From Polyangiaceae bacterium (GTDB lineage: Bacteria; Myxococcota_A; Polyangia; Polyangiales; Polyangiaceae), in contig JAPYTK010000037.1 in the NCBI GenBank assembly GCA_029941785.1, forward strand, positions 1 to 33,479: a stretch of DNA of 33,479 bases, given 5' to 3'. The stretch's first letter is position 1, and the number at the start of each line of letters is the position of its first letter. A model generated the notes under the pieces. That model had not been told where the DNA came from. It saw only the letters and a program-made list of their open reading frames with translations, and did not search any database. The translations under genes and the position numbers were made by a program. Positions 7,701-30,977 of the stretch are shown piece by piece.

Positions 7701-7777
7701 GCGCCTGTAGCTCAGCTGGATAGAGCGTCGGACTTCGAATCCGAGGGTCAGGGGTTCGAATCCCTTCAGGCGTGCCA
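7701..7777 (+). tRNA. tRNA-Arg (anticodon UCG)
   Basis: A full cloverleaf. Acceptor GCGCCTG pairs with CAGGCGT (G1-U72 wobble), followed by discriminator G and an encoded CCA. The D arm is GCTC/GAGC with GG in the loop. The anticodon stem TCGGA/TCCGA encloses CTTCGAA, giving anticodon UCG, which reads CGA codons. The T arm is AGGGG/CCCTT with loop TTCGAAT. It stands alone between dacB and the convergent yccF-like gene. Confidence 0.97.
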
Positions 7778-8315: not shown

Positions 8316-8325
8316 CGCGGCGATT

Positions 8326-8399
8326 GCCCCCGTAGCTCAGCTGAATAGAGCAGTGGCCTTCTAAGCCGACGGTCGCAGGTTTGAGTCCTGCCGGGGGTG
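8326..8399 (+). tRNA. tRNA-Arg (anticodon UCU)
   Basis: Acceptor GCCCCCG/CGGGGGT with discriminator G; the following bases are CCCA, so CCA is not encoded in register. The anticodon loop CTTCTAA gives UCU, which reads AGA. The D loop is AGCTGAATA (A at position 19 instead of G) and the T loop is TTTGAGT (U at 56 instead of C), so the conserved G19-C56 tertiary pair is replaced by A19-U56. The anticodon stem GTGGC/GCCGA has a G27-A43 mismatch and a U28-G42 wobble. The paired 19/56 change argues for a functional gene, with a somewhat weak anticodon stem. Confidence 0.93.
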
Positions 8400-8404
8400 C
8401 CCAA

Positions 8405-9613
8405 TCAGGGAGCGCTCGCGATGGCGACATGCAGCAGGTTGGCCCCACCGATGGCGGCGGGCTCGCTCCACGTGCCGTTGTCATAACGCAGGTGCACCGC
8501 CGCGCCGTTGACGACCGCGGCGAGCTCGGCCTCCGCCGAACCACTGCCCTTGGCGAGGGACGGGCTGGAGTCGACGAGGACGTCCGCGCCCGCGACCGCT
8601 TGGGCGGGGCTCCAGGTTGGCGCGCTGCCGGAGAAGAAACGCGTCACGTACGCTCTACTGTCGGAGCCTCGGTAGCTGAGGAGGGCGTCGCCGCCAGCGA
8701 GCCCGATGATGGCGATGGCGTCGGTCGTGAAGACGTCCGGATCGATGATCGCCGGCTCGCTCCACTCACCGCTGCTGGCGTAAGACCACATGATCTTGGT
8801 GTGCTTGGGGTCGATGACCTCGTTGTGCGTGTAGACGATGAGCCAACCGGAACTTCCTTCGAGCTTGACGATCGCTGGCGGATCGAGCGTCCTGCTGCCG
8901 CCGACTGCTTCAGCGGCTAGCCAACTGTCGGCGCTGCGCGTCTGCACGTACACTTTTTGGTCGTCGCCGCTGAACGCCACGGTAGGCTCATCGCTCTTCA
9001 CATCGAGCCGCGGCGGCGTTGGGCCGTAGCTTTGCGCGTCGCCTGGTGGTTCGACGGTTTCGTCGGTGGGTGACCAGGCGTTCGGCGCGTAGCGGGCGTA
9101 GTAGTGCTTGTAGTTGCTGCCCTGAAACACGAGGTGCATGGCGCTGTCGCCGGCGACGAGCGACGGTGCCGAGCGCGTGGTGATGGTCGGCCCGATGACA
9201 TCGAAGCCCTTCCACAGCGCGCCTTCGAAGTGCGCGACGCGCAGCAGGTCGTCCGCGGAGCGATGAACGGCGGCCAACGCGCTCCCGTCGAGAGCCATGG
9301 CGATGCTGACGGCATGGCTCGAGTTCTCTTGGTGCGTCGTCGTGATCCACCCCTCTCGGGCGTTGAACTGGCCAAGGATCCCGCCGTTGGGCCCGCTGGC
9401 GACCATCACCAACGCTTCCGTTGCAACGCCGCCTCCTTGGCTACTGCTCGAGGGCTTCTGCCCGCCGCTGCCCCCGGCGCCGGTCGCCGCGCCCGATCCG
9501 TCGCTGGCCGACCAAGAGGAGCCGCCGCCGCCAGAGGTGGTCGCCGTCTCACCGCCGCCGCACGCGGCGAGCGCGACACCCAAAACGAAGACCCCCAGCG
9601 TGTTGCTGTTCAT
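8405..9613 (-). CDS. Lipoprotein with sialidase/propeller-like repeats
   Basis: A 402-residue exported lipoprotein of unknown function. The signal peptide ends in a lipobox with Cys18 (GVALAACGGG), followed by a Gly/Ser-rich linker to about residue 62. The rest consists of repeating short strands with recurring W-S-x-P or W-S-E-P phrases (NAWSPTDE, GEWSEPAI, PTWSPAQA, GTWSEPAA), spaced as in six- or seven-bladed sialidase-like beta propellers. No catalytic Asp-box set is evident. A -10-like TATACA lies 6 nt before the ATG and there is no Shine-Dalgarno sequence. The stop codon is 5 nt from the convergent tRNA-Arg(UCU). Confidence 0.8.
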   Translation of the reverse strand: MNSNTLGVFVLGVALAACGGGETATTSGGGGSSWSASDGSGAATGAGGSGGQKPSSSSQGGGVATEALVMVASGPNGGILGQFNAREGWITTTHQENSSHAVSIAMALDGSALAAVHRSADDLLRVAHFEGALWKGFDVIGPTITTRSAPSLVAGDSAMHLVFQGSNYKHYYARYAPNAWSPTDETVEPPGDAQSYGPTPPRLDVKSDEPTVAFSGDDQKVYVQTRSADSWLAAEAVGGSRTLDPPAIVKLEGSSGWLIVYTHNEVIDPKHTKIMWSYASSGEWSEPAIIDPDVFTTDAIAIIGLAGGDALLSYRGSDSRAYVTRFFSGSAPTWSPAQAVAGADVLVDSSPSLAKGSGSAEAELAAVVNGAAVHLRYDNGTWSEPAAIGGANLLHVAIASAP

Positions 9614-12338: not shown

Positions 12339-12465
12339 GTAACGGAGAACGGCCACTTTGCCGAAAACTTGAGAATTTTGGTAGGCGAAGGTGCGCCGAA
12401 GTAGGCGCGGATGGACGGGCGAGAGGGGCGTCTGGAGACAATTCGTGACGGCGAGCCACTTGCCC

Positions 12466-12495
12466 CTGGAAAGTCGATACCACAACGCGGATAAT
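12466..12495 (+). promoter_or_regulatory. Candidate promoter of the SNF2/RapA-like gene
   Basis: CTGGAA (12466-12471), 18-nt spacer, GATAAT (12490-12495). The start codon at 12532 has its own ribosome binding site, so the leader would be about 30 nt. Confidence 0.3.
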
Positions 12496-12531
12496 CCGTT
12501 CCCGTCGTTGCCAGGCGGGGAGAGACTATCG

Positions 12532-15500
12532 ATGAATTGGAACGGAATACTCGAGCATCTGACGGTTGGCCGTTTGGTGAAACTAGCGGAAGGTGTCGGC
12601 TTTAGCGGGGTCACGAAACGTCGGAAAGCCGAGCTCGTGCAGACCTTGTCCGACGTCCTGGACGAGGCCCTCAAGTACGAGATTCTGTCGCTGCTCAGTG
12701 ACAAGGAGTTACGAAGCGTCGCCGCGAAGAACGATGCCTCCTTGGTGTCGATACGACGGCACGAGTTGATCGGTGGCCTGCTCGAGGGGGATCACGAAGC
12801 GGACACGTTGCCGCTCGACATCGGTTGTTTCATGATGCCCGATGCGCGACGTCTGGATTTGCCGATTGCGGCGCGTGCCCAGACGGACGTCGAGTTGATC
12901 CCTTCGCGGCCCATTGGCGCTGAGGCGAGCCTGCTCTTTGAAATCCAGCAACGGCTTCGCCGACCGACACTCAGGCGCGCCTTTCTCGTCGCGACGAACA
13001 CCCGGTCGCCGATGCTCGCGCAACTTCTCGGGCAAGGTCTGGACGACTTCATCGAGAGCGCGGTCAGCCACCGGCGGGCCGAGGGGGACGGCCCTCTCGT
13101 TACCATCGTGCTCGACGGCGAGGAGCCCGGGCTCGACAAGGGCGAGATTGGTCAGGTTCTCGTGTCGTTGGCGCGCGAGCTTCCCGACCGGGTGGCCTTG
13201 CGCCTCTCGCGTGCGGGCCATCGGGTTAATGCGACCGTGTTTGGCTTCGAAGAACTGCTGCCTCAAGGGGGGTACTTCTCGGCCATCGTCGGATCGGGTG
13301 GACGCAAGTGGACCGGAGAGCGTGGTCGTTTGGCCGAGGCGAGCGTCTTGCTCAGTGGCTACACGGGCGATGGTGGCGCGCCATCGGAATCGGTGCAGAG
13401 CTGGGTGCGCAGTACCGTTCACGCGTCTCGTCGTCTGGAGACGGACGGGCTCGCTCCCTTTGGGGATGCGGCCTGGGCGAGTCGAAAGATCGCCTACAAG
13501 CGCTCGTTTGACACCGGCCACGAGCTTCGGCTCAAGCATTTGGCAGAGAAACTCGCGCGCCGCGGCCGATTGGCCGGCGCGATGTTCGATCCCAGCTCCC
13601 TTCATCCGCCTGCCAACAACCAGATGATCGCCCTCGCGCTGGCGTCTGAGGCGGGCTGTCAGGGTGTGCTGCTGTGTGACGAACCGGGGATGGGCAAGGG
13701 CGTCGAAGCTGGATTGATCTTGGCGCGGGAACTGCGCCGCCGCCGTATTTTTGCGTCAGAGGATGCGGTGGATCGCCGCCGAGCCTTGGTGGTCGCGCAA
13801 GGTGCGCGCCATGCCGATTGGCGTGAACAGCTCGAGGGTTTCTTCGGTCTTTCGGTCTACGCATGTGGCGTCGACGGTTACCGGGTTGGCGCGGCGCGAG
13901 ACGTCGCGGTGACGTTGGTCACGCCGAGCGAAGTGGCCGCAGGCTGGGAGCGCTTTCAGGAGGCCGACGTGCTCGTTGTCGACGACGCTCATCTTTGTGA
14001 CGACACCGAGCTGGCGGCCCTTGCTTCGATACGGCGCAGTGCTGACATGTGCGTGGTCGTGACGAGCGCGCCGGTTCACAGCGACGTGTCGGATGTGTGG
14101 GCCTTGGCGGCTCTCGCCGATCCCGACGAGGCGTGGGACGCGTTGAGCGATGTGGACGAGCACCACGCCGAGCTGGGCGAGGCTTTGCGTGGCATGACGG
14201 CCCGCAGTCATCGGGACGTCCTGCTCGACGAAGCGCTGATCGGGACGCGCCGGGTGGTCGAGCACGTCGTGAAGCCGCACCGAGACGAGGCAGCAGCGTT
14301 CCTCGAGCTACGGTGCATGCGCAGCGATTACCTCCAACGAAGTGGCGAGGGTTCGGCCTGGGCCTTCGTGTCGCTCGAGGAGGCCCTCGAGAGTTCGCCG
14401 CAGGCTTTCCTTTCCCAATCATGTTTGTTGTTGGGCGAGTTGGAAGGCCTCCGGCCGGCAGGACGTGAGCGTGACGGGTCCTACGGCGCGCTTGAATCGT
14501 CGAGCTATTTCCGCCGTCGGCTGCGCTCCGTTCGCGAGAAGTTACGTTCGTCTTGCCGTCCTGATGCGTCAACCACGGCGAAAGAAGCCGAGCTGTTGGC
14601 TCAGCTGGCGACGATGGCCGGCAAGCGGGTCATCGTGTGCACGCGTTACCGGGCGACTCAGCAGCGGCTGGCGACCGTGCTCGGTCGCTCGAGGCTTTGC
14701 GGTGCGGTCGAATTGCTCGATAACGGCGCCCGTCGATCGGCGCGTCGCCAGAGCGTCGATTCGTTCATCGAGCTCAGCGGTCAGCGTTCGTCGACGGGCG
14801 GACCTGCGGGCGTCCTGATCTGCACCGACGACAGCACCGAGGGGCTCTCTTTGGCGCACGTTTCCCGCACGCTCGTCAATTACGACATTCCCATCAATCC
14901 TCAGCAGCTCGAGCGCCGCGTGTCGCGAATCGAGCGTTACGGCAACGGGGGAGAGGTTCAGGTCCTCAATTTGGCTTTCGCGCCGGTGAAAGGAGCGCCT
15001 TCCCTGGCCCGCCGCTCGCTTGGCGCGGCGAAGCTCTTCGACATGGAGGAGCCGCAAGGTAGTCGCCGAGCTTCTCTGTTCGAGATTCCGGCCGAGGAAA
15101 TCGAGCGGGCGCTCGTCAGCGAAGCGGAGCCGACCCTGTCCCTTGCCGAGCCGGGCGATGACTCGGCCATCCAACAACTCGAACTGTTGCTCGAAGGCGG
15201 CATCCCCGATTCGGTGCAGGTTTCGGTTGAACGGCTCCAGCAGATCGATCGGGCCTACCGCGAGGACTTGCGTGGATTTTGGGAGCGGGTCTCGTTTGGC
15301 CAGCAGCCCGGTGGCGGTGCGTCGCATCACATTTTCGACCGCGTTCAGCTCGCTTTGTTGCAGGGGCAGGTGGGCGCGCTTTGCGCAGCGGGCACGCCGC
15401 TCGACGACTGTCGCGACTACCATCTGGTCTTGGGGCTGCGCTTGCTCTACGAGTCGGTCGAGAGCGTCGGCGACGATGCCCCGCTCGAAGAGCAGTGGCT

Positions 15501-15993
15501 CATCGAAGACGAGCAGGTCTATCTTTGGGCTGTTGGATCGAGTGGCGAATTGAGCGATTGGGCTGCCGTTCTTCTCGAGGGAGGCCAAGTCGAGGCGCCG
15601 CCCGACAAGGCGGCGACGGTGGTTGGGGAGGATGTGATCAAGCACTTGCTCGCCCAGAAGGCGGACATGGAAGGGGCCGACAAGGATGCGGTGCCTCTCG
15701 GGGAGTGGAGCGCACGTGCCCCCAAGGGCATGGCGCAACGAATCGGTGTCGCGAACAAACGTGCAGAGGCGATGGCGGTGGGCCGCGTCGAAGAGTTAGG
15801 TGCGGCGTGGTCGGTACACCACGAGGCGCGGCTCGCGCGGCTCGCAAGTCGAGTGGAGCGGGCCACGGCAGCGGGTATCGAGGAGGAGCATTGTGAAGAC
15901 CTGCGAGCCGCGTTTACGAAGGAGCAGCAGCGCTTGGTTCGTTTTCGGCACCATGTGCTCGGTACGCAGCTGTTTGCGGTATTGCACGCCTGA
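12532..15993 (+). CDS. SNF2/RapA-type helicase-like protein with degenerate ATPase and PLD-like domains
   Basis: A 1153-residue protein. The ATG at 12532 is chosen over the longer frame because GGGGAGAG lies 7 nt upstream. Residues 9-41 and 55-85 look like two tandem SAP/Rho-N-type helix-turn motifs. Residues about 140-290 resemble a PLD-like fold (AIVGSGG at 251-257, EASVLL), but the HxK motif is replaced by His230-Arg-Val-Asn. The rest is SNF2/RapA-like. Motif I is DEPGMGKG (383-390, Gly replacing the Thr after Lys389), motif II DDAH (484-487), motif III TSAP (511-514), motif V CTDDSTEGLSL (764-774) and motif VI ERRVSRIER (794-802). Motifs V and VI match RapA well; I and II do not. It may be a pseudo-enzyme or slow ATPase acting on nucleic acid or RNA polymerase. 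No methylase or nuclease partner is adjacent. Confidence 0.8.
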   Translation: MNWNGILEHLTVGRLVKLAEGVGFSGVTKRRKAELVQTLSDVLDEALKYEILSLLSDKELRSVAAKNDASLVSIRRHELIGGLLEGDHEADTLPLDIGCFMMPDARRLDLPIAARAQTDVELIPSRPIGAEASLLFEIQQRLRRPTLRRAFLVATNTRSPMLAQLLGQGLDDFIESAVSHRRAEGDGPLVTIVLDGEEPGLDKGEIGQVLVSLARELPDRVALRLSRAGHRVNATVFGFEELLPQGGYFSAIVGSGGRKWTGERGRLAEASVLLSGYTGDGGAPSESVQSWVRSTVHASRRLETDGLAPFGDAAWASRKIAYKRSFDTGHELRLKHLAEKLARRGRLAGAMFDPSSLHPPANNQMIALALASEAGCQGVLLCDEPGMGKGVEAGLILARELRRRRIFASEDAVDRRRALVVAQGARHADWREQLEGFFGLSVYACGVDGYRVGAARDVAVTLVTPSEVAAGWERFQEADVLVVDDAHLCDDTELAALASIRRSADMCVVVTSAPVHSDVSDVWALAALADPDEAWDALSDVDEHHAELGEALRGMTARSHRDVLLDEALIGTRRVVEHVVKPHRDEAAAFLELRCMRSDYLQRSGEGSAWAFVSLEEALESSPQAFLSQSCLLLGELEGLRPAGRERDGSYGALESSSYFRRRLRSVREKLRSSCRPDASTTAKEAELLAQLATMAGKRVIVCTRYRATQQRLATVLGRSRLCGAVELLDNGARRSARRQSVDSFIELSGQRSSTGGPAGVLICTDDSTEGLSLAHVSRTLVNYDIPINPQQLERRVSRIERYGNGGEVQVLNLAFAPVKGAPSLARRSLGAAKLFDMEEPQGSRRASLFEIPAEEIERALVSEAEPTLSLAEPGDDSAIQQLELLLEGGIPDSVQVSVERLQQIDRAYREDLRGFWERVSFGQQPGGGASHHIFDRVQLALLQGQVGALCAAGTPLDDCRDYHLVLGLRLLYESVESVGDDAPLEEQWLIEDEQVYLWAVGSSGELSDWAAVLLEGGQVEAPPDKAATVVGEDVIKHLLAQKADMEGADKDAVPLGEWSARAPKGMAQRIGVANKRAEAMAVGRVEELGAAWSVHHEARLARLASRVERATAAGIEEEHCEDLRAAFTKEQQRLVRFRHHVLGTQLFAVLHA

Positions 15994-16017: not shown

Positions 16018-17001
16018 TTAGCTCGCCTCGTCGAGTTTGGCTCGAAGGAAGTCTGCGACCTCAGCGGTGGCTTTCTCTCCTTCGGGCAGGATGTCGCCGA
16101 AGAGGTGAAAGGCGTGGATCATCTCCGGGTAGATGGTCGATACGACCTCGACGCCATGTTCTTTCGCGCGTTCGATGATGCGCGTGGCGTCGGCGCACAG
16201 TGCCTCGGCCCCGCCGGCGTGAACCAATAGCGGCGGCAGCCCGCTCATGTCGGCGTGAAGTGGCGAGGCTAGCGGATCGCGACGCTGGTGGTCACCGACG
16301 TAGCGGCGGGCGTAGGCCTCGAGTGTCTTGCGGTTCAGGAAGTCGTATTTTGTGTTGGGATCGACCGTGCTGCCGGTCATCTCCAGATCGACCCAGGGTG
16401 AGATCACCGCCGCTGCCGCTGGCATGGCCTCCCCGAGATCGCGCAACCGCAATAGCAGCGCGAGCGTCAGACCGCCGCCTGCCGATTCCCCGGCGATCAC
16501 CACCCGATCGGGAGGGTGACCATGCGCGAGAACGTGACGATACGCTTCGAGGGCATCATCGACCGCGGCAGGGAAGGGATGTTCGGGCGCCAAGCGATAG
16601 TCCACGGCAAAGCCGGTCACTCGGGTTTTCTGCGAAAGTCGCGCGATGAAGTCCCGGTGGGTGTCGATCGAGCCGATCGAGTAGCCACCGCCGTGCAGAT
16701 ACAACAGGACCCCCTCGCTCTCCTGGTCGTGGTGGAACCACTCCGCAGCGATGGACCCGGGGCCGACGCGGACGGGCCGAAACTGGCACTGCCTGGTGGC
16801 TGGGGTAGGCCGTAGGAAAGCCGTCGCTGCCTTGCGCTGAAGCGAAAGCGGAAGCCAGGTGGAGCGTCTGGCGTAGTGATGCAGGAGCATGGCCAAGGTC
16901 TCGTAGCGCGCGTCCCAGCTCGGGAGCATGGGCCCGCGCAGCCTCCGCCGAAGCTGAACGATCCGATGAATCCCCCGCGCGAACCACCAGACCGCCGACA
17001 T
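16018..17001 (-). CDS. Alpha/beta hydrolase, HSL-type esterase
   Basis: A 327-residue carboxylic ester hydrolase of the hormone-sensitive lipase family, with the oxyanion-hole motif HGGG (103-106), the nucleophile elbow GESAGG (171-176, Ser173), and the RLAPEHPFPAA block just before it. His296 (in MIHAFH) is the likely catalytic base; the acid is probably Glu266 or Asp271 in GAEALCAD. The substrate is unknown. The frame is open to 17157, but the ATG at 17001 matches the usual N-terminal cap helices and is preceded, 7 nt upstream, by TAGGCT, a -10-like hexamer also seen before two other genes here. There is no Shine-Dalgarno sequence. It converges on the SNF2-like gene with a 24-nt gap. Confidence 0.92.
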   Translation of the reverse strand: MSAVWWFARGIHRIVQLRRRLRGPMLPSWDARYETLAMLLHHYARRSTWLPLSLQRKAATAFLRPTPATRQCQFRPVRVGPGSIAAEWFHHDQESEGVLLYLHGGGYSIGSIDTHRDFIARLSQKTRVTGFAVDYRLAPEHPFPAAVDDALEAYRHVLAHGHPPDRVVIAGESAGGGLTLALLLRLRDLGEAMPAAAAVISPWVDLEMTGSTVDPNTKYDFLNRKTLEAYARRYVGDHQRRDPLASPLHADMSGLPPLLVHAGGAEALCADATRIIERAKEHGVEVVSTIYPEMIHAFHLFGDILPEGEKATAEVADFLRAKLDEAS

Positions 17002-17008
17002 GCTCGGG

Positions 17009-17014
17009 AGCCTA
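17009..17014 (-). promoter_or_regulatory. Candidate -10 element of the esterase, possible leaderless start
   Basis: TAGGCT on the minus strand, 7 nt before the ATG at 17001. The -35 is weak. Confidence 0.35.
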
Positions 17015-17108
17015 GAGCGAGCGTGGCCTCTCGGCGATGGAAATGACCGCCGAACACCGTCGATTATCGCAAAATCGAGGATCTGGCCCGGGGGGCTCAA
17101 AAAGACTG

Positions 17109-17137
17109 TTGCGCTGTCACCTCGCCTTGGGTAACAA
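17109..17137 (+). promoter_or_regulatory. Promoter of tRNA-Lys
   Basis: TTGCGC (17109-17114), 17-nt spacer, TAACAA (17132-17137), 13 nt before the mature tRNA. The spacing is ideal for sigma-70. Confidence 0.5.
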
Positions 17138-17150
17138 CCGGGCCCCCGAC

Positions 17151-17223
17151 GGGCCATTAGCTCAATTGGTAGAGCAGTGGACTCTTAATCCATTGGCTGA
17201 AGGTTCAAGTCCTTCATGGCCCA
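17151..17223 (+). tRNA. tRNA-Lys (anticodon CUU)
   Basis: Cloverleaf with acceptor GGGCCAT/ATGGCCC and discriminator A; CCA is not encoded. The D arm is GCTC/GAGC with TTGGT in the loop, the anticodon stem GTGGA/TCCAT encloses CTCTTAA (anticodon CUU, AAG codons), and the T arm is TGAAG/CTTCA with TTCAAGT. The gene is followed immediately by a strong terminator, so it is a single-gene transcript. Confidence 0.97.
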
Positions 17224-17231
17224 CCCCGTAA

Positions 17232-17282: not shown

Positions 17283-17870
17283 CTATGCGGAGGAGCGCTT
17301 TGCCAGATAGAAGGCGCGCGCGCCGCCGACGGCGAGTACGAAGGCGACGGCGAGCAGTCCTACATCGAAGACCAGGTCCTCCTTTTTCTTCTTCGCGGCG
17401 GCGGTCGGCTCAGGAAATTCGACCACGAGTCCCGCGAAACCGGGGAACCGTTTCTTGATACCGGCTTCGAGGGTCGGGAGGCTCGATACGGGGAAAAACT
17501 GACCGTAGGGCTCGCACGGGATGGCTTCCTTGCCTCGCAGCATGGCGCACGGCGCGTAATAGAGAAGCGGGATTTGGGCGTAATCGTGACCACTCGCCGG
17601 CTTGGCATATCCTCGCTTGACGAGGGGAACGATGCAGTCGGGCCGCCCATCGACCGGGGATCGATCATCGAGACGACAGATGGCGTTGCGGACGGTGGTA
17701 TTGCGGTAGGGTCTTTCGGTGGGCGGGGCGTCGATATCCCACACGGACGGTGGGGCCATGGCGTCCTCGATCTTGGCGCCGACTCCGAGCACCAACAGGG
17801 CTGCGCCCATGGCGAACATGGTGGCTCCCACGGCCATCGTTCTGCGTCTCCGGGTCGAGCTCATCGTCAT
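17283..17870 (-). CDS. Two-TM hypothetical protein
   Basis: A 195-residue protein with no family that I recognise. A hydrophobic segment at about 12-33 (after an Arg-rich start, SSTRRRRT) and a second at about 167-188 flank a roughly 130-residue soluble domain with five Cys and the phrase PLLYYAPCAML; an Ala/Lys stretch (TAAAKKKKEDL) precedes the second segment. This suggests an extracytoplasmic domain held by two membrane helices. The ATG at 17870 is supported by TAACCT located 7 nt upstream, in the -10 position for a leaderless transcript; the ATG at 17864 is the alternative. It is divergent from the lipoprotein at 17946. Confidence 0.7.
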   Translation of the reverse strand: MTMSSTRRRRTMAVGATMFAMGAALLVLGVGAKIEDAMAPPSVWDIDAPPTERPYRNTTVRNAICRLDDRSPVDGRPDCIVPLVKRGYAKPASGHDYAQIPLLYYAPCAMLRGKEAIPCEPYGQFFPVSSLPTLEAGIKKRFPGFAGLVVEFPEPTAAAKKKKEDLVFDVGLLAVAFVLAVGGARAFYLAKRSSA

Positions 17871-17877
17871 GAGCCGC

Positions 17878-17883
17878 AGGTTA
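17878..17883 (-). promoter_or_regulatory. Candidate -10 element, possible leaderless start
   Basis: TAACCT on the minus strand, ending 7 nt before the ATG at 17870. Confidence 0.3.
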
Positions 17884-17945
17884 ATTGAAGGATCGGAGTG
17901 ACACACTCTCGATCATGCGTGCCTTGCAGGTTACCATCTGGATTG

Positions 17946-19169
17946 ATGGCTCATTGGCTTCGAACGATGTGTGCTGCCGTGGCGAGCGCTGGGCTCTTGG
18001 CTGTCGTGGCTTGCGGCGACACCGTCAACATCAACGCGCCTCCTGCGACGAGCGCCGGCGGGCAAGGTGGCGGCGCGGGCGGAGAGGCGAGCGTCGCCTC
18101 CGGAGGCTCCGGACTCATCGACCCGCAGTCCTGTCCCGAGGGACAATTCGCGACCGGTTTCGACTCGGGGGGGCTCATCGAATGCGCGGCGCTCGATCCG
18201 TCGCGAGTGACTCGCGCCGTTGGCGAAGACTGTTCGGTGTTTTGGGGGTGGCGCGACGACTGCAGCGGTTGCGACAGGCGGCCAAAGAAGTGGGGCAGCG
18301 TCAACAGCGTGAGCTGCGAGAACGGGCGCGGTGAAGACAGCACCTGCATCGAAGCCGATCTCGGAGGGGCCAAGCTTCCGCTCTTCGGCCTCAACACCAA
18401 CGGCAACGTCAACGGTGATGATAAGTTCTACTTGGGCACGCTCTGCTCCCAGCTTGGCGAATCGGGTCACGTCGGCCCATGCAAAGACGGAGAATTTGTG
18501 AAGCACGTTTCCGGTGGCGTGGTGGAGTGCGTGAGCGGGGACCACCTCTACATCGACTATTTCCAAACGCACTGCTCGCTCTATCTCGGTTGGCTGGACG
18601 GCTGCGAGGGATGCGTTGCTGATCCGAGCAAATGGGGGCGCATGCTTGGAACGAGCTGCCAGGATGGCGCTGGCGATGACAACATTTGCTACACGCCCTT
18701 CCTCCACGGTTCGTGGGTTTCCCTCTTTGGCTTGAACACCGATGGGGATGTCGATGGCAACGACATGTTCTACGTTGGCATGCGTTGCGACGAGGCCGAG
18801 CTGCAGAGCGCCGAGACTCCGGGGCCGTGTCCGCCGGGCATGCTCATGACGGGGATCAAGGCGGACGGTAGCTTGACCTGCGCCAGCCCTGCACCGCAGA
18901 TGCACCCCGCGGTTCGGGACAACTGCTCGCTTTACCTCGGCTGGCGGGACAGCTGCGATGGCTGCACCGATCCACCGAGCAAATGGGGGCGCGCGAGCCA
19001 CGGGGCCTGCGAAATTGGTGCTGGCGCCGACAACGCATGTGCGGATCTGACTCTCGATGGACAGCCCGTCACGACCTTGGCGATCAATACCGATGGCAAC
19101 GTGAACGGTGACGATAAGTTTTACGTCGGATGGCAATGCGTCGAGCCGAGTTCCGATCCCCCGGGCTAG
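17946..19169 (+). CDS. Lipoprotein with three Cys/Asn-rich tandem modules
   Basis: A 407-residue exported lipoprotein of unrecognised family. The ATG at 17946 gives a signal peptide ending in the lipobox AVVAC (Cys23), then a Gly/Ala/Ser linker. Three modules follow, with key cysteines at about residues 96, 210 and 327 (repeat lengths 114 and 117). Each has C-S-x-x-x-G-W-x-D-x-C-x-G-C, then a P-x-K-W-G-R-like turn, then N-T-(N/D)-G-x-V-(N/D)-G-(N/D)-D-x-F-Y. The Asp/Asn/Gly-rich stretch looks like a possible Ca2+-binding loop, though that is inference. Before each module is a shorter C-x-x-G ... G-x-x-x-C unit (CPEGQF, CKDGEF, CPPGML). The gene lies in a run of extracytoplasmic proteins. Confidence 0.75.
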   Translation: MAHWLRTMCAAVASAGLLAVVACGDTVNINAPPATSAGGQGGGAGGEASVASGGSGLIDPQSCPEGQFATGFDSGGLIECAALDPSRVTRAVGEDCSVFWGWRDDCSGCDRRPKKWGSVNSVSCENGRGEDSTCIEADLGGAKLPLFGLNTNGNVNGDDKFYLGTLCSQLGESGHVGPCKDGEFVKHVSGGVVECVSGDHLYIDYFQTHCSLYLGWLDGCEGCVADPSKWGRMLGTSCQDGAGDDNICYTPFLHGSWVSLFGLNTDGDVDGNDMFYVGMRCDEAELQSAETPGPCPPGMLMTGIKADGSLTCASPAPQMHPAVRDNCSLYLGWRDSCDGCTDPPSKWGRASHGACEIGAGADNACADLTLDGQPVTTLAINTDGNVNGDDKFYVGWQCVEPSSDPPG

Positions 19170-19256
19170 CGTTCCCTCGGAGGAAGTGGCTCTGCAGTCA
19201 AGAGCTGTCGCCCTTCGGTTTTTCGCCATCGGAGCGAGCCGCCCCGGCAGCCGCGC

Positions 19257-19285
19257 TTGGGATTGCCCGGTCCTGCTGCTAGGCT
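19257..19285 (+). promoter_or_regulatory. Candidate promoter, leaderless
   Basis: TTGGGA (19257-19262), 17-nt spacer, TAGGCT (19280-19285) with an extended TG, and the ATG at 19293 exactly 7 nt downstream. No Shine-Dalgarno is present, so transcription could begin at or next to the A of ATG. Confidence 0.5.
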
Positions 19286-19292
19286 TTCATTC

Positions 19293-20459
19293 ATGAAGCG
19301 CTGGACAGCGGTGGCGGCATTAAGCCTCGGTCTTCTCGCGGCGGTATCGTCGTGCGGTCCTGACGCAGCGGAGCCCATGTGCGACCCCGGAACGGTCGTG
19401 TTCTGCCGTTGCCGGGGCTTTGAGGCCGGCGACAAACAGTGCTCTGCCGCGGGGGATGGCTTCGGCCCCTGTCAGGTCGATGGCGCGACCTGCGATGAGA
19501 TCCCCGAGCCGCCCACTACGGGATCGGGAACGAGTGCCTCTTCGGGCTCATCGATGAAGCCGCCCGCGCCGGGTGAACTCTACGCGGCCTGCACGGCGCA
19601 GACGGACTGCAAGCCTGAACTGCAATGTGAGCGGGGCTATTGCACGAAGAGCTGTTTGAGCTACGAGGAGTGTGCGGCCGGCGACTGCGTTCAGAAAGAC
19701 GGCATGACCCTGTGTTCGCCTTACTGCCTCGAACAGAAGGGCTGCGCAAGCTACGGCGACACCGTGTCCTGTGGCTACACCGGGGCGGCGGTACCGGTTT
19801 TTGATGTTGTCGTGTGCGCAGATTGGGGGGTACCGGCCCTACCTCCGGACGGATACCCGCCCAGCGGCAATTGCGACACCGATGCGCGCTGTCACCTCGG
19901 CTTTACAGGCAAAGAACGGGTTTGCGGACCGGGCGGATGTGCGGACGGTTGTCATATTCAATCCGATTGTGCCGACGCGAACGCGAGCTGCAGCTCGGAC
20001 GGAAGCTCCCTTGGCACATGCAAGGCCGAAGCGACTGGCGGCGTCGACGCCTGCCCGGGGTTGCAGGTGACGGTCGACCTCGGGGCGAACAGTACGCACA
20101 AGCTCATCGGCGACACCTCGCTGTTGAGGAAGCCCGCGGAGGCGACAGGCGTTTCTCAAATGGATTGTTTTTTCTCGACGAACGAAACCGAGGAGGCGAT
20201 CTACCAGGTCACCGCCGCGGATACGGGCAATCTGGTCATGCTGCTGTCACCGGGCCCTGCTTTCGATTCGCAGCTCTACGGACGAACGGGGACGTGCGAC
20301 AGCGGAGAGCAGGTCTTCTGCGAAGATGAAATCGGCGACGGCACGGGCGAGATTTACGAGCACGCCATGAAGGCCGGGGAGGTCGTGTGGATTTTCGTGG
20401 ACGGATGGGACGGATCCGAAGGGCCGTATGAGCTGGAGTTCGATTTCTCTAGTCCGTGA
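19293..20459 (+). CDS. Cysteine-rich lipoprotein with PPC-like C-terminal domain
   Basis: A 388-residue lipoprotein. The signal peptide ends at the lipobox VSSC (Cys21). A Cys-rich part follows at about 30-70, then a Ser/Pro/Thr linker, then a second Cys-rich block of roughly 20 cysteines (for example TDCKPELQCERGYCTKSC) at about 95-250, and finally a 120-residue beta domain in which FFSTNETEEAIYQVTA and VVWIFVDGWDGSEGPYELEFD recall the bacterial PPC domain used in secreted enzymes. The function is unknown; a surface or extracellular binding protein is likely. It ends 11 nt inside the convergent kinase gene. Confidence 0.75.
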   Translation: MKRWTAVAALSLGLLAAVSSCGPDAAEPMCDPGTVVFCRCRGFEAGDKQCSAAGDGFGPCQVDGATCDEIPEPPTTGSGTSASSGSSMKPPAPGELYAACTAQTDCKPELQCERGYCTKSCLSYEECAAGDCVQKDGMTLCSPYCLEQKGCASYGDTVSCGYTGAAVPVFDVVVCADWGVPALPPDGYPPSGNCDTDARCHLGFTGKERVCGPGGCADGCHIQSDCADANASCSSDGSSLGTCKAEATGGVDACPGLQVTVDLGANSTHKLIGDTSLLRKPAEATGVSQMDCFFSTNETEEAIYQVTAADTGNLVMLLSPGPAFDSQLYGRTGTCDSGEQVFCEDEIGDGTGEIYEHAMKAGEVVWIFVDGWDGSEGPYELEFDFSSP

Positions 20460-23157: not shown

Positions 23158-23559
23158 ATGAAAGACGACGAGGCCTACCGCGACAAACTGACCCCGTTGC
23201 AATTTCGCGTCACTCGCGAAAAGGGGACAGAGCGGGCCTTCTCGGGCGAGTACGAGAAAGAAAAGGGCTCGGGTGTGTACCAGTGCATTTGCTGCGAAAC
23301 GCCGCTTTTCAGCAGCCAAGCGAAGTACGACTCGGGGTCTGGCTGGCCGAGCTATTTCGCCCCGATCGATGGCGCCCCCGTCGTCGAGACCAGCGATGAC
23401 GCCTTTGGTATGCGGCGCACGGAGGTCAGCTGTGGTCAGTGCGATGCCCATCTCGGGCACGTCTTTCCCGACGGTCCACCGCCGACGGGCCTTCGCTATT
23501 GCATCAACTCCGCATCGCTCAACTTCACGACCGAGACGCCAAGCGCGGCTCAGGACTGA
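23158..23559 (+). CDS. msrB: Peptide-methionine (R)-S-oxide reductase
   Basis: MsrB reduces the R-epimer of methionine sulfoxide in proteins. The 133-residue protein has the whole domain: [20 protein letters not shown], then Cys pairs for structural zinc (CICC and CGQC), [18 protein letters not shown], and the catalytic Cys in [11 protein letters not shown]. In some organisms this last position is selenocysteine; here it is Cys. The protein lacks a signal peptide and should be cytosolic. It is divergent from the peroxidase gene with a 154-nt intergenic region and overlaps the convergent mfd stop by 10 nt. Confidence 0.97.
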
Positions 23560-26500
23560 ACGCAGTTCGCCAGTTCGTGCAGGAGTCGCTGCGTAGCGGC
23601 CAAACCATCCGCCATGCCTTCTGCGGCGTCGAAGCGTCGCGTCAGCCGCATGTCGGGCGTGAGCTGCACGCTCTGTGGGTGACGGCTGACGTGTGCGGCC
23701 AATACGGCCCCGTCGAAGGGAGCGTCTTGGTTGAGATGCAGAACCACTTTGCGGGAGCTGGCTTCGCAGCCCAACACGCGTAATTGACGCAACTCGGTCT
23801 TGAGCGCCATGAGGTGCAGCAATCGAGCGGCGGCCTCTGGGGCCCGTCCGAAGCGATCTTCGAGTTCAGCACCAATGGCATCGACCTCCTCTGCGTCGAA
23901 GGCTCCGGAGAGGCGCTTGTAGATCGATAGACGGATCCCCATATCGGCGATGTACGTCTCGGGAAGCAGAGCCTCCACGTCGAAGGAGAGTTCGGGGTCG
24001 ATGTCGTGTAGGAACGGTTCACCGCGCAGTTCATGCACGGCTTCGTCGAGCATGCGGCAAAACAGATCGAAGCCCACCGTTGCGACGGCACCGCTCTGTT
24101 CGGCTCCGAGGAGGTTGCCGGCGCCACGCAATTCGAGGTCGAGGGAGGCGATCTGAAAGCCGGATCCCAGATCGGTGTAACGCTGAATGGTCTCGACTCG
24201 CGTTCTTGCCTCGGCGCTCAGCGCTGCGGAAGGCGGAACGATCAGGTAACAGTAGGCGCGCTCCGAAGACCGTCCAACCCGGCCCCGTAGTTGGTACAGT
24301 TGGGCAAGCCCAAACATTTCCGCTCGATCGATGATGATGGTGTTGCAGCGAGGAATGTCGAGACCATTTTCAACGATCGCGGTCGAGCACAGGACGTCGA
24401 AGTCACCGTCGATGAAGTCTCGCATCGTGGTCTCGAGCCGTTGCTCATTCATTTGGCCGTGGGCGAGCCGAACCTGCGCGTGCGGAACGAGCCTTTTAAT
24501 CATCGCCGCACGTTCGGCCAGGCCGGATATACGGTTGTAGACAAAGTACACTTGGCCGCCGCGGGCCACTTCGCGGGTGATGGCTTCGGTCAGCACGGTG
24601 GGATCTTGGCGGGTCACGATGGTCCGGACGGACCGGCGGTCTTGGGGAGGGGTCGTGATGAGGGACAAGTCGCGCAGGCCGGCGACCGACATCTGCAAGG
24701 TTCGCGGGATGGGGGTCGCCGTCAGGGTCAGCGCGTCGACGTTTTTCTTTAGCGCCTTGAGTCGTTCCTTGGCGGTGACGCCGAAGCGCTGCTCTTCGTC
24801 CACGACGAGGAGACCGAGCGCCTTGAAGTGCACGTCTTTGGAGAGCAGTCGGTGGGTTCCGATCACGATGTCGACGCGTCCTTCGCGAAGGCCCCGTGTC
24901 GTGGCCTCTTGTTCCTTTTTGGTCTGGAAGCGACTCAATTGAGCGATGTTGAATGGGTAGGGCGCCAGTCGCTTGGCGAAGGTGATCGCGTGTTGTTGGG
25001 CGAGCACCGTCGTCGGACACAGCAAGGCGACTTGGCGGCCCGACATGGCCACGCGGAAGGCGGCGCGCAATGCAATCTCCGTCTTGCCAAACCCGACGTC
25101 GCCGCAGACCAGACGATCCATCGGTCGTGGGGACTCGAGATCGGCGGACACTTCCTCGAGGCAGCGCAGCTGGTCTTCCGTCTCCTCGTAGGGAAAGGCC
25201 GCCTCGAAGGTGAGGTAGTCCGTGTCGCGTTCAGGAACCGGGATGCCGACGGCAAGCTGCCGCTCAGCGTAGAGCTGCATCAACTCGTCGGCGATGTCCC
25301 GGGCTTTGCTGCGCGCGCGTCCTTTCGCGCGGGCGAAGGACTGCCCTCCGAGTCGGTCTAGTTTCGGTTTGGCGTCGCTGCCCCTCAATTTTTGCAGCTG
25401 ATTGAGGCGGTAGACGGGCAGGTAGAGTTTGTCCCCGCCGTGGTACTCGACGCACATCAGATCCACCGTGCGGTCTTGAACTTGGCGATGAACGAGTCCG
25501 AGGTAGCGTCCGATCCCGTGCTCGGTGTGGACGACGAGGTCCCGTTCGCGAAGTGAGCGGAGGTCATCGGAGAAAGTCTGCTTCTTGTGTCGGCGACGGC
25601 GAGCTTGGCGGCGGGGGGTCTCGCCGCCGAAAAACTCGTTGTCCGTGAGCAGGACGATGCCGTCGTGCTCGGCGACGACTCCACGTGGTAGCGGAGAGAC
25701 GATGATACTCACCGGGGCATCCTCATCGGCTGGTCCCGCGCTCAGTGCGCTGGTCAGATCGGAGGAGCTGTCGGTGCGGAGAGTATGGTCGGCGTGAAGG
25801 CGGTTGTTCAGTAGGACGGAGAGACGATCGGCATTGGTGGCTGAGCGGGCCGTGATAATGACGCGCAGTCCTCTTGTTTGCCAGCCGCGAATGGCATCGA
25901 GAAGGGGATCGAGGGTTGCGGTTTGCCCCTGCGATTTGCGCTGGGCTGCGAGGTGGGACAGGAGGTGGCTGTGGTCGGAGCTGCCGAGGCTCGGGGTGTC
26001 GGCGGTTGCGCGACCAAACGACGCGATGATGTCGGGATCTTCTCCTACGATCGGTGCACTGGTCATGCTGAGGGTCTCACGTCCAATGAGCCACTCGGCG
26101 ATATCCGCTGGGTCTGAATACAGGTCGTCGATGGGGTAGCAGGGCGTGCCGCTTCGCCCGGCCTCCTCGTGTTCGGCGCGCGCATGGGCGTCTTGCAGGG
26201 CGCCGGCGATGCGTGAGGGATCGTCGAGCACGACGAGCGCGTCTGTCGGTATCACGTCGGTGACGTCCACGAGCGGACCGAAGGCTGGCAACAGCGCGTC
26301 GGTGCCAAAGAGACGTCGGCCCTCCACCAAGTCATCGATGAGCTGCCGGGTCTTGGCGCTTGGCCAGTCGCAGGCGTCGCAGCGATCGCGCAGCCGCTGT
26401 TTGGCCTCTGCATCTGGGACCTCCCAAGCGCGGGCGGGGGGCAGGAAGATCTGCGCGTGGGTCTCGATTCGTCGCTGCTCTTCCGGGTTGAAGGACTGAA

Positions 26501-27158
26501 TGGACTCCAGCATGTCGCCCACGAGTTCCAGTCGTAGCGGTTGCTCAGACCCTGGGGGCCACACGTCGAGCAAGCCTCCGCGGACGGCGAATGTGCCAGG
26601 ATCTTCGACGAGCGGTACCCGAAGGTAGCCTCCACGAACGAGCCGTCGGGACAAAGTGTCCAGGCATACGACCTGCCCCGTTGAGAGCGAGTCACTCCGG
26701 TCGCGCAAGTGTGCGGTGGGTACCACCTTCTGAAGCAACGCGGGAGCGGACAGCAGCGCGACCGACCAGCGCGGGCCGTCGGAGCCTTCGCGGCGTGACG
26801 CCGCAAGTTGAAGCTGGGTGGCGAGACGCCTCTGCTGGAGGCGGCGGTCGGGGATCACTTCGGCGTATACGCTGTTGCTCGGCGTCTCGAGCAAGATGCA
26901 CGGCCGAGTGTTTGTGCGTCCGCCGGCGTCGGGTGGCGCGAGACATTCGATTTCCGCTTGTGCTAGCTGCGCTCGCGTTCCGGTATCCGTCAGAATGACC
27001 AGCGGTCGAGTGCTTCGCTTGACCCAATGATGGCAGAACAAGGCCAAGGCGCTGCCGCAGGCGTAAGTGGCTCCCCAATGCTTCGAGTTGGCCTCGGATC
27101 GGGGAGCATCGATCTGCTCGATCAGTTGCGCAACGGACAAGAGAGGAGGGGCAGTCAT
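23550..27158 (-). CDS. mfd: Transcription-repair coupling factor
   Basis: Mfd removes stalled RNA polymerase at DNA lesions and recruits UvrA. The 1202-residue protein has the complete architecture: N-terminal UvrB-like domains, an RNA polymerase interaction (CarD-like) domain around 540-605 ([14 protein letters not shown] ... [15 protein letters not shown]), the SF2 helicase domains with Walker [10 protein letters not shown] (Lys692), DEEQ (787-790), a TATPIPRTL motif and a conserved motif VI region ([11 protein letters not shown]), and a C-terminal TRCF domain (about 1040-1140). The frame is open to 27212; the ATG at 27158 gives the usual N-terminus. There is no Shine-Dalgarno. It is divergent from the PilZ gene. 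Confidence 0.98.
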
Positions 27159-27325
27159 CGGAAAATTGTGGCGCGTCACGCTTAATGAAGTCGCGATGCA
27201 GACGCATGCCATGGCTCAGTCGCTAGGTGAACGACAAACTTGGCCGTTTCCTCCTACACGCCGTACCGAGGCCATAGACCCTGTTTATCGGCGAGGCGGC
27301 CGAAGGGGCCCGGGAGGACAGCTAA

Positions 27326-29419
27326 ATGACCGTGGACGAGAGCAACCAGCGCGACGAGCGCATCGACCGGAGGGACGCCAATACGCCGCGCGTCCAGTAC
27401 GAAGCGCTTGTGGAAGTTGGTGCAGGATCGACCGGGGGATTCGAGGCTGAATCCGTCGATGTTTCGGTCGATGGAATTCGACTCCGTACGGCTTATCTGC
27501 CGCAACCAGGCGAGGCTCTCGTGTGTCGCTTCAACGGGGTTGGCGGCGAGATCGTCGCAGAGGGTCAGGTGAGCTGGTGTCGCCAAGAGGATCGCGGTGG
27601 CGAATTCGGCGTTCGCTTCACGAATCTCGATGCCTATGGTGCACAATTACTCGAGGCGATCTGTCGCCCCGAGGAGCCGGATCCTATCGCGTTTGACGGG
27701 GCCCCGCCGGGGTCGCGCGTTCGTATGCATATCGAGGGCCTCGGTGCTCCCATGCGCGCTCGCGTACGCGACGCAGCACGAGGCGAGGTTCTGATCGGAT
27801 CCAACCTGGAGTTCTTGCGTGTTGGCCGTGACGTCCAGCTGGAAGAGTTGGATGGCGGAACCAAGCGCACGGCGCAGATCGAGCATGTGGCGGTCGACAT
27901 CGATCCTGAGAGTCGTGTTCCGCAACTCGTCGTCGCTCTGCGTTACGAAAGAGCGGTCGTCGAAGGCGGTGAGGAGCAGCTCAATACGCCAGTCCATCAC
28001 TCACAGGGCGGTGCCCATTACGCTCCGCTCCCGCAAGGTGGGCGTCCGCCCATGCGCGCCGATGGTACGCCAGAGCCCGCGGTGATCGATGCCGAGCACG
28101 ATTCGTCGACCCACGGGGAAGTCTACGCGGCTCCGCCCATCTATCAGCGGCATGTCGATGCCTACGCTCCGGGAAGCATGCCGGCGCCGTACACGGCAGG
28201 ACCCGAGCCGCACTCCGCGGCGAGTCCACCTTCACGCAGTTCGGACGCGCCGGTCGTCGACGCTGAGGCGGCCCCCCGAGTGAATCGTGGCGCCAACGAT
28301 GGGGACGAGCACACCTCGGTAGGATTCGGCGATCGGTTGCGGGATGTGGTAAGCCGCATCGGCCCACCGCTCGCAAGCATGGGCCATGGCGCCAAGGGGG
28401 CGATGAGCGCCGTTCTACGTACCGTGCGTGAAAAGCGCGGCGCCAGCGTGTCCAAGGCAGCGGAGCGGTCCAAGGTCAACGGGCCGAAGCGCACCACCGC
28501 GCCGCCGCCATCGGGTGCGCTTCGTAGTGATGGCAAGCGCTTGTTCCGTGAGCAGATTGCCGAAGCGAGTCCTCCTCGGAGCCTCGAAGGTGGAACGGCG
28601 CCGAACCGCAAACGCGCCGTTTTCGGTGCCGTTCTCGGGATCATGTCGGTGGTTGCGATCTACGCGGTCGCCGATCACCTGAGCGGTCAGGACTCCGATG
28701 GCGCCAGCGCTGTTGCGGCCGTCGATGGCCAGGCGCCAACACCTCAGCTGGCCGCTCCGGCGGCGGCAGGGCAAGCTGGTCCGGTGGGCATCGGGCAAGG
28801 CGTCACCGTGCTTCCCGGCGGGACACCACCCGGAGCTGGTGCGCCGGTCGCAACGGCGAATGTCCCGCTCTTCGGTGCGACACCGCTGTCGACGACCGAA
28901 GCTGTGCCGCCCCCACCTGGCGAAGCTACGTTGCGGGAAGCTGGCCGAGCGGGTGCACTGCCGGCACAGCCCAAAGCCGAAGAGGCGACGAAGCTACGAA
29001 GGGATTGGGGCGTGGGGGCGGTGGAGGATCCCAACGTCATCCGTCTCAAGATGGACGGGAAAATCAGTGGCGTTGCCGGCGCGGAAGGAGCTACGGGCTT
29101 TACCGTCGTAATCCCTGGCCGCAAATCGATCTCCTCCGCAGCGGGCCTTGCGCGCAAGGATCGTCGTATCGACTCGGTCAACGTCGTGAACTACCCCGAC
29201 CGAGCAGAGGTTACCTTTCATTTCAAGGGTGAGATCCCGCCCTTCGTGGTCAAGGCGCGAGGCAAGCGCCTGATCGTCGAACTCGGTCAAGCCAAGAAGC
29301 GAAAGAAGAAGAAGGCCAAGAAGCGAAAGAAGCGAAAGAAGAGCAAGAAGAGCAAGAAGAGCAAGAGTCGCGCGAAGAAGAAGAAGACCAAGAAAAAACG
29401 TCGACGTAAGAAGAGCTGA
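27326..29419 (+). CDS. Tandem PilZ - TM - AMIN-like - polylysine protein
   Basis: A 697-residue protein with no exact family that I know. The ATG at 27326 has GGGAGG 8 nt upstream. Residues about 14-115 are PilZ-like, with Asp45-x-Ser47-x-x-Gly50; the Arg motif is spaced RRDANTPR, so c-di-GMP binding is uncertain. Residues 121-220 form a second PilZ-like barrel (SRVRMHIEGLGAPMRARVRD, PQLVVALRY). A Pro/Gly/Ala-rich linker leads to a single membrane helix near 431-452 (AVFGAVLGIMSVVAIYAVA). A Pro/Ala linker follows, then an AMIN-like domain at about 565-655 (VIRLKMDGKI ... PFVVKARGKRLIVELG), ending in 42 residues that are almost all Lys/Arg. I infer a cytoplasmic c-di-GMP sensor tied to the periplasm or envelope; AMIN domains bind peptidoglycan in pilus and amidase proteins. 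Confidence 0.75.
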   Translation: MTVDESNQRDERIDRRDANTPRVQYEALVEVGAGSTGGFEAESVDVSVDGIRLRTAYLPQPGEALVCRFNGVGGEIVAEGQVSWCRQEDRGGEFGVRFTNLDAYGAQLLEAICRPEEPDPIAFDGAPPGSRVRMHIEGLGAPMRARVRDAARGEVLIGSNLEFLRVGRDVQLEELDGGTKRTAQIEHVAVDIDPESRVPQLVVALRYERAVVEGGEEQLNTPVHHSQGGAHYAPLPQGGRPPMRADGTPEPAVIDAEHDSSTHGEVYAAPPIYQRHVDAYAPGSMPAPYTAGPEPHSAASPPSRSSDAPVVDAEAAPRVNRGANDGDEHTSVGFGDRLRDVVSRIGPPLASMGHGAKGAMSAVLRTVREKRGASVSKAAERSKVNGPKRTTAPPPSGALRSDGKRLFREQIAEASPPRSLEGGTAPNRKRAVFGAVLGIMSVVAIYAVADHLSGQDSDGASAVAAVDGQAPTPQLAAPAAAGQAGPVGIGQGVTVLPGGTPPGAGAPVATANVPLFGATPLSTTEAVPPPPGEATLREAGRAGALPAQPKAEEATKLRRDWGVGAVEDPNVIRLKMDGKISGVAGAEGATGFTVVIPGRKSISSAAGLARKDRRIDSVNVVNYPDRAEVTFHFKGEIPPFVVKARGKRLIVELGQAKKRKKKKAKKRKKRKKSKKSKKSKSRAKKKKTKKKRRRKKS

Positions 29420-29454
29420 AAGACGGCGCCCCGAACGGGCGCCGTCTTCGTTTT
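29420..29454 (+). terminator. Rho-independent terminator after the PilZ-AMIN gene
   Basis: AAGACGGCGCCC (29420-29431) pairs with GGGCGCCGTCTT (29437-29448) around loop CGAAC, followed by CGTTTT. The 12-bp stem begins one base after the stop codon. Confidence 0.9.
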
Positions 29455-29462
29455 GTCGGTCT

Positions 29463-29918
29463 TCAGATGTGAAGCTGCGTCTGATCTGATTTTTCGGCCT
29501 TCTCCGGCCTCTTCTCTTTCTTCTTCAAACGGGCGGTCGGCAAGTCGCTCATGCCTCCTCCTTCAGGCCGGACACTCCCGACGGGTGCGTGTCCTCGGGC
29601 CAGGCATACGTCGTGGGCCTTGACCTCGGTGCTGAACCGCGTGGTGCCGTCCTTGACGTAACTGGTCGTGCGCAATGTTCCCTCGACCATCACCTGTGTT
29701 CCCTTGTTCAAGAGCGCGGCCAGACCTGTCGCGCGGTTGCCCCACAAGATGACGCTGTGCCATTCGGTGTGGTCCTTCCACTCCTCCTCTTTGTTCTTGA
29801 AGCGTTCGCTCGTCGCAAGTCGAAAGCGTAGGTACGGCGTTCCGAGCGCCGTGTGTTTGAGTTGTGGATCCTCGCCGAGATTCCCCAGTAGATAGACCTT
29901 GTTCAATCCTTTGCTCAT
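29463..29918 (-). CDS. ssb: Single-stranded DNA-binding protein without the acidic tail
   Basis: A 151-residue SSB with the OB-fold in residues 1-105 (GLNKVYLLGNLGEDPQLKHT, TEWHSVILWGNRA, LLNKGTQVMVEGTLRT, TRFSTEVKAHDV), Trp residues stacked for ssDNA binding. The C-terminal linker is Lys-rich (LKKKEKRPEKAEKSDQTQLHI) and lacks the conserved acidic DDDIPF-type tip that recruits partner proteins in most bacterial SSBs. AGGAAG lies before the ATG at 29918. It is the last gene of comM-recA-ssb, 19 nt after recA. The basic tail suggests a specialised SSB paired with the adjacent RecA; a housekeeping SSB elsewhere is expected. Confidence 0.95.
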   Translation of the reverse strand: MSKGLNKVYLLGNLGEDPQLKHTALGTPYLRFRLATSERFKNKEEEWKDHTEWHSVILWGNRATGLAALLNKGTQVMVEGTLRTTSYVKDGTTRFSTEVKAHDVCLARGHAPVGSVRPEGGGMSDLPTARLKKKEKRPEKAEKSDQTQLHI

Positions 29919-29937
29919 GATGTCTTCCTGTTGTTAA

Positions 29938-30948: not shown

Positions 30949-30977
30949 GGTCTTCTTTCTTTGGATGAAACGAGGAA

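Follow-up and report, generated by a model that had tools for sequence, protein, structure and literature searches.

A very divergent SNF2 protein from a Polyangiaceae bacterium with replaced residues in its ATPase motifs

P0001 encodes a protein of 1153 amino acids which, in the reading that we favor by a modest degree, is a lineage-specific, very fast-evolved RapA/HepA-like SNF2 (SF2) protein that has been retained without normal motor chemistry. The helicase descent and the losses of catalytic residues fit the descriptive class of pseudohelicases, although inactivity itself is something that we infer. The window, that is, the whole stretch of DNA analyzed here (33,479 nucleotides), is an entire contig of a draft genome of 6.03 Mb that is 99% complete. 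A preliminary description of this DNA, based on the letters alone, had held that the protein keeps its shape and has lost its chemistry; this stands for the SNF2 core, which combines a confident two-lobe model with non-canonical motifs I, II, III, V, and VI, but not for the phospholipase D (PLD)-like part that was proposed along with it. The features are collected in Table 1.

Table 1. Features of P0001 and its upstream region in the window
Feature	Position (nt)	Strand	Basis
P0001, gene of the divergent SNF2 protein, 1153 aa	12532..15993	+	ORF call; frame intact
Sigma-70-like promoter match, TGGAAA-17-GATAAT	12467..12495	+	consensus match only
Shine-Dalgarno-like GGGGAGAG, 7 nt 5' of ATG	12517..12524	+	sequence
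SAP/Rho_N-like helix-loop-helix, residues 7-41, weak	12550..12654	+	sub-threshold profile matches, low-confidence models
PLD-like region of the preliminary description, residues 130-280; GSGG at 13291-13302	12919..13371	+	assignment unsupported
SNF2 core, two RecA-like lobes, residues 361-820	13612..14991	+	Pfam, structure matches, AlphaFold
Motif I, CDEPGMGKGVEAG; K389 kept, T390 to Gly	13675..13713	+	alignment
Motif II, VLVVDDAHL; D484 and H487 kept, catalytic Glu485 to Asp	13969..13995	+	alignment
Motif III, VVVTSAPV; consensus LLLTATPx	14053..14076	+	alignment
Motif V, VLICTDDSTEGLSLAHVS; consensus T-E/D-AGGEGINLQFC	14812..14865	+	alignment
Motif VI, NPQQLERRVSRIERYG; R796, R799, R802 kept; Q795 to Arg, G798 to Ser	14896..14943	+	alignment
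C-terminal long helical hairpin, residues 1067-1152	15730..15987	+	AlphaFold, pLDDT mostly 80-90

The SNF2 core can be recognized both in sequence and in predicted structure. Pfam Helicase_C was matched with an E-value of 1.5e-6, while the Pfam SNF2 domain stayed below threshold, and RapA was the top sequence match among solved structures (residues 377-811, E 3.4e-7). With 61 aligned homologs, AlphaFold modelled residues 361-820 at a pLDDT of about 90, and its confidence was poor for most of residues 1-360 and 920-1066. Two RecA-like lobes with SNF2 topology were found in the model. The fold comparison proposed in the preliminary description gave Z scores of 21-26 against the SNF2 ATPases INO80, ISW1, CSB, ZorD, and RapA, the value for RapA being 21 over 431 residues, and the assignment to a SNF2-like core with decayed catalytic motifs is borne out by the confident core model and the 61-homolog alignment.

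In SF2 helicases, the Walker lysine binds phosphate and the Walker threonine coordinates Mg, the glutamate of motif II is catalytic, and motif III is the coupling motif. P0001 was aligned with the 61 homologs, and a column was taken as conserved when at least 85% of them agreed. Motif I is DEPGMGKG in P0001 vs. DEVGLGKT in the homologs, and motif II is DDAH (within VVDDAH) vs. DEAH; the threonine and the glutamate are each present in 61/61 homologs, which puts the two substitutions far beyond chance. Both departures were correctly read in the preliminary description. Motif III is TSAP vs. TATP, motif V is STEGLSLA vs. GGEGINLQ, and motif VI is ERRVSR vs. EQRIGR. Motif Ia is altered as well (P to Q, and Q to D ahead of the tryptophan), and its changes and those of motif III had been missed. 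The view that motifs V and VI are well kept was overstated: TDDSTEGLSLA stands against T-E/D-xGGEGxNLQ and ERRVSRIERYGN against EQRIGRxHRxGQ, and only arginines, EG, and NP survive across the two motifs. At positions fixed in all 61 homologs, P0001 carries the substitutions T390G, E485D, A512S, T513A, Q775A, Q795R, and G798S, while Q364, D383, K389, W430, D484, H487, E770, R796, R799, and R802 are retained. Overall, it differs at 35 of 84 conserved core columns, compared with 20 of 86 in the next most deviant homolog. As to the signatures of an active ATPase, Walker A GK[T/S] is absent (GKG), DExH is absent (DDAH), and the motif VI arginines are present.

Among 123 homologs, motif I ends in GKT in all 122 in which it is readable. 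The homolog searches in the genome collection did not require the threonine or the glutamate, and therefore this contrast is not an artefact of the search. The assembly carrying P0001 is a fragmented draft; a sequencing error is nevertheless an unlikely source of the Walker glycine, because no fewer than two base changes separate its codon, GGC, from every threonine codon (ACN). In a search with the peptide DExG[LM]GKGxEA, P0001 was the sole match among 377 genomes of the phylum. GKG was found in two phage SNF2 proteins among 2.9 million viral contigs, each with an intact DECH or DEAH motif, against at least 120 GKT matches. One of the two (L199, 8779-10608, plus strand, on the 367 kb viral contig IMGVR_UViG_3300010049_000009) is a SNF2 helicase with ADEMGLGKG, DECH, and its other motifs intact; the other (L200, minus strand, frame 1-1443) combines GKG with DEAH, and its remaining motifs are recognizable as well. 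Replacement of the Walker A threonine by glycine in SNF2 proteins is thus very rare but not unique, and since the phage proteins have a canonical DExH, loss of the threonine is by itself no proof of inactivity.

The regions flanking the core are less readily assigned. No sequence match, PADLOC included, was obtained for the N-terminal 370 and the C-terminal 320 residues. Two SAP-like motifs had been proposed at the N-terminus, of which the one at residues 7-41 persists as a weak candidate: the Rho_N match there reaches 14.6 bits (E 0.032) against a Pfam cut-off of 24.9, phrog_2724 matches in the SAP-like region at E 0.1, and a helix-loop-helix appears with low confidence in two predicted models. 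The second motif gained no statistical support in a repeat test, in which 480 of 2000 shuffles reached an equal score. With regard to the degenerate PLD-like domain, the GSGG string is indeed present at residues 254-257 and, as had been stated, HxK is missing; no HxK...GSxN pattern occurs in P0001. On visual inspection, the succession VNATVFGF...FSAIVGSGG...EASVLL is reminiscent of the HxK...GSxN half of a PLD domain, and a single-sequence model (pLDDT 37), in which helices and strands alternate, is roughly compatible with this fold. However, residues 130-280 scored no better than shuffled sequences against either of two profiles, one built from 35 PLD domains and the other from four PLD-SNF2 proteins, and a fold search with the same model returned nothing below E 0.001. 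A PLD domain in P0001 is therefore unsupported, though not disproved.

Several features of the locus indicate a real gene. The promoter-like match was observed once against 0.3 expected in shuffles and ends 36 nt before the ATG at 12532; the frame is also open 5' of this ATG, with a GTG at 12391, but it is the ATG at 12532 that the Shine-Dalgarno-like site precedes by 7 nt. Codon preference resembles that of the housekeeping neighbors over the entire length. Nonsense mutations account for about 3.5% of the single-base changes possible in P0001, and its 1153 codons contain no stop. As the frame has stayed open on a branch along which about two-fifths of the conserved core positions changed, the protein can be argued to be in use, and the open frame together with the neighbor-like codons argues for selection on the reading frame over this long branch, an argument that concerns the whole frame of a single sequence and not individual residues.

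The neighboring genes encode a sigma-54 activator, CTP synthase, FAA hydrolase, D-Ala-D-Ala carboxypeptidase, and an amidohydrolase with a TetR regulator, and also an alpha/beta hydrolase, a protein kinase, Mfd, SSB, RecA, and a YifB/ComM ATPase. PADLOC detected no defense system adjoining P0001 on the contig; its sole matches in the neighborhood were to the kinase domain encoded by a gene at a distance of 4.5 kb, and an ordinary Ser/Thr kinase would produce them too. The window also holds tRNA genes for Arg-tcg (7701-7777), Arg-tct (8325-8403), and Lys-ctt (17151-17225). The last shares seven bases with the initial codons of the hydrolase ORF called at 16018-17157, so the start of this ORF probably lies further in. 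Long frames of 207-432 aa at 8408-9613 and 17283-20459 gave no Pfam, NCBIfam, or PADLOC match, with DUF3040 below threshold, and two of the frames, on opposite strands, compete by overlap at 17898-19229. Mfd, SSB, RecA, and YifB/ComM are clustered at 23550-32528, where a gene with a PilZ domain lies between those of Mfd and SSB.

Searches with the N-terminal part, the C-terminal part, or full-length P0001 found no ortholog in the family (108 genomes), the order (183), or the phylum set (377). Single-protein scans, which reach close relatives only, gave none in the genomes of 84,980 species or in viral contigs, and searches of plasmids and phages returned core paralogs or nothing. An alignment-based scan yielded 80 core paralogs, all with a canonical motif I. 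Since the more distant homologs are all GKT/DEAH, the loss of the motifs is placed on the branch of P0001. This terminal branch measures 6.3 changes per site in the tree, compared with a median of 0.29, and owing to its length the placement of P0001 in the tree is unusable. The same genome has three further SNF2 matches well above the Pfam cut-off. A diverged syntenic ortholog was also considered and rejected, as genome G001 keeps the amidohydrolase-TetR pair but lacks this gene; the RapA-like genes of relatives have neighbors that differ from those of P0001. Judged by tree branch lengths, the cores of two DpdE-like SNF2 proteins encoded in two Polyangiaceae genomes, L027 and L028, lie near those of L146-L148 from viral contigs (summed branches about 0.2), and the two proteins, which come from two genera, are nearly identical to each other (about 0.007). 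This suggests either mobile transfer or viral bins that contain host sequence.

In the favored reading, duplex DNA would be bound in the SNF2 cleft, as is assumed from the fold, perhaps with the aid of the N-terminal SAP/Rho_N-like module. ATP may still be bound through the Walker lysine, the motif II aspartate, and the motif VI arginines; with the Mg-coordinating threonine and the catalytic glutamate both replaced, hydrolysis would be slow or absent. Retention of the former residues and change in the latter and in motif III fit a low ATP turnover. P0001 would then act with some partner as a DNA clamp, a scaffold, or a nucleotide-gated switch rather than as a translocase. All three elements of this reading, namely the loss of hydrolysis, the binding of DNA, and the role as a clamp, are what we infer. 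As a counter-point, the step from glutamate to aspartate is conservative, and with the lysine and the arginines still in place activity may persist. A bolder proposal, to which we give only limited credence, is a new bacterial family of SNF2 pseudo-translocases with large unrelated ends, in which P0001 would be an ATP-gated, non-hydrolyzing DNA clamp that recruits a partner. Replacement of both Walker positions seems to be rare in natural SNF2 proteins, given the single match to the pattern in the 377 genomes, and a true pseudo-translocase would separate the gripping of DNA from its pumping and provide a natural test of the residues needed for each. As a singleton, P0001 is more of a curiosity than a system, an odd one-off of the familiar SNF2 kind.

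It is conceivable, though distinctly less probable, that P0001 is a divergent yet active SNF2 ATPase which tolerates the Walker glycine and the aspartate through compensating changes in the core. K389, D484, H487, and the three motif VI arginines are retained, the substitution in motif II preserves the acid, and the two phage proteins carry GKG beside an intact DExH. Such tolerance would have to cover motifs I, II, III, V, and VI altered together, and none of the 122 other readable homologs has GKG.

The remaining explanations are weaker still. P0001 could be an orphan factor directed against invaders or phages that descends from a SNF2 protein of the DISARM, Dpd, or PLD-helicase type and uses its inactive core as a nucleic-acid sensor. 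This would account for the PADLOC and NCBIfam matches, which are mostly to defense SNF2 proteins (DrmD, E 6e-24; DpdE; BrxHI/HII), and defense genes typically show fast evolution, presence in a single genome, and long ends without relatives. This origin, which had also been raised in the preliminary description, appears rather improbable: the matches are limited to the shared helicase core, the curated full-length models for DISARM, Dpd, and PLD-helicase proteins are missed by hundreds of bits, the terminal regions have no PADLOC match, and no defense operon surrounds the gene. Still less probable, indeed very much so, is a functionless gene decaying toward loss. The many lost conserved residues, the failure to find an ortholog, and the long branch would agree with decay, but the 1153-codon frame is intact and its codon usage is normal over the whole length, a promoter-like match and a Shine-Dalgarno-like site precede it, and the core fold is confidently predicted.

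Among known systems, RapA, the RNA polymerase-associated Swi2/Snf2 protein, shares the SNF2 core and is the nearest solved structure by sequence, which is the one basis for the association with the polymerase that had been suggested; the gene context offers no link to it. RapA has GKT/DEAH and is an active ATPase, in contrast to GKG/DDAH in P0001, which scores 39.6 bits with the NCBIfam RapA model against a cut-off of 576. The ends of P0001 share no similarity with RapA. RapA has N-terminal Tudor-like domains; the N-terminal region of P0001 has no sequence match and a low-confidence model. The top genome-wide core matches, at 22-31% identity, come from Bacillota and Myxococcota and are YqhH-like and short RapA-like SNF2 proteins (L064-L100, L002-L010), but these have one-half to three-quarters of the length of P0001, canonical motifs, and other ends and neighbors. 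DISARM DrmD, DpdE, and BrxHII resemble P0001 in the core, and the resemblance extends to the SSP.A helix that lies between the two lobes. However, P0001 stays far short of their cut-offs (84 bits against 610 with the curated DrmD model, 77 against 500 with that of DpdE), it has no partner genes and no DISARM neighbors nearby, and the relatives of these groups read here have intact catalytic motifs. The PLD-helicase anti-phage protein (NF042964) has an extra region of similar size ahead of its SNF2 core, but P0001 scores 38.9 bits against 1100 and shows neither HxK nor significant PLD similarity. Precedents come from other families. PriA of Deinococcus radiodurans, with poor matches to motifs I and II, binds DNA and neither hydrolyzes ATP nor unwinds (PMC4504706), and inactive Swi2/Snf2 domains were described in PglZ and DndH (PMC12839542). 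Like P0001, these proteins are helicase-derived and have eroded motifs, with a role on DNA kept or proposed; however, PriA has lost the Walker lysine that P0001 keeps, and the Swi2/Snf2 domain of PglZ consists of one shortened lobe, whereas P0001 has two.
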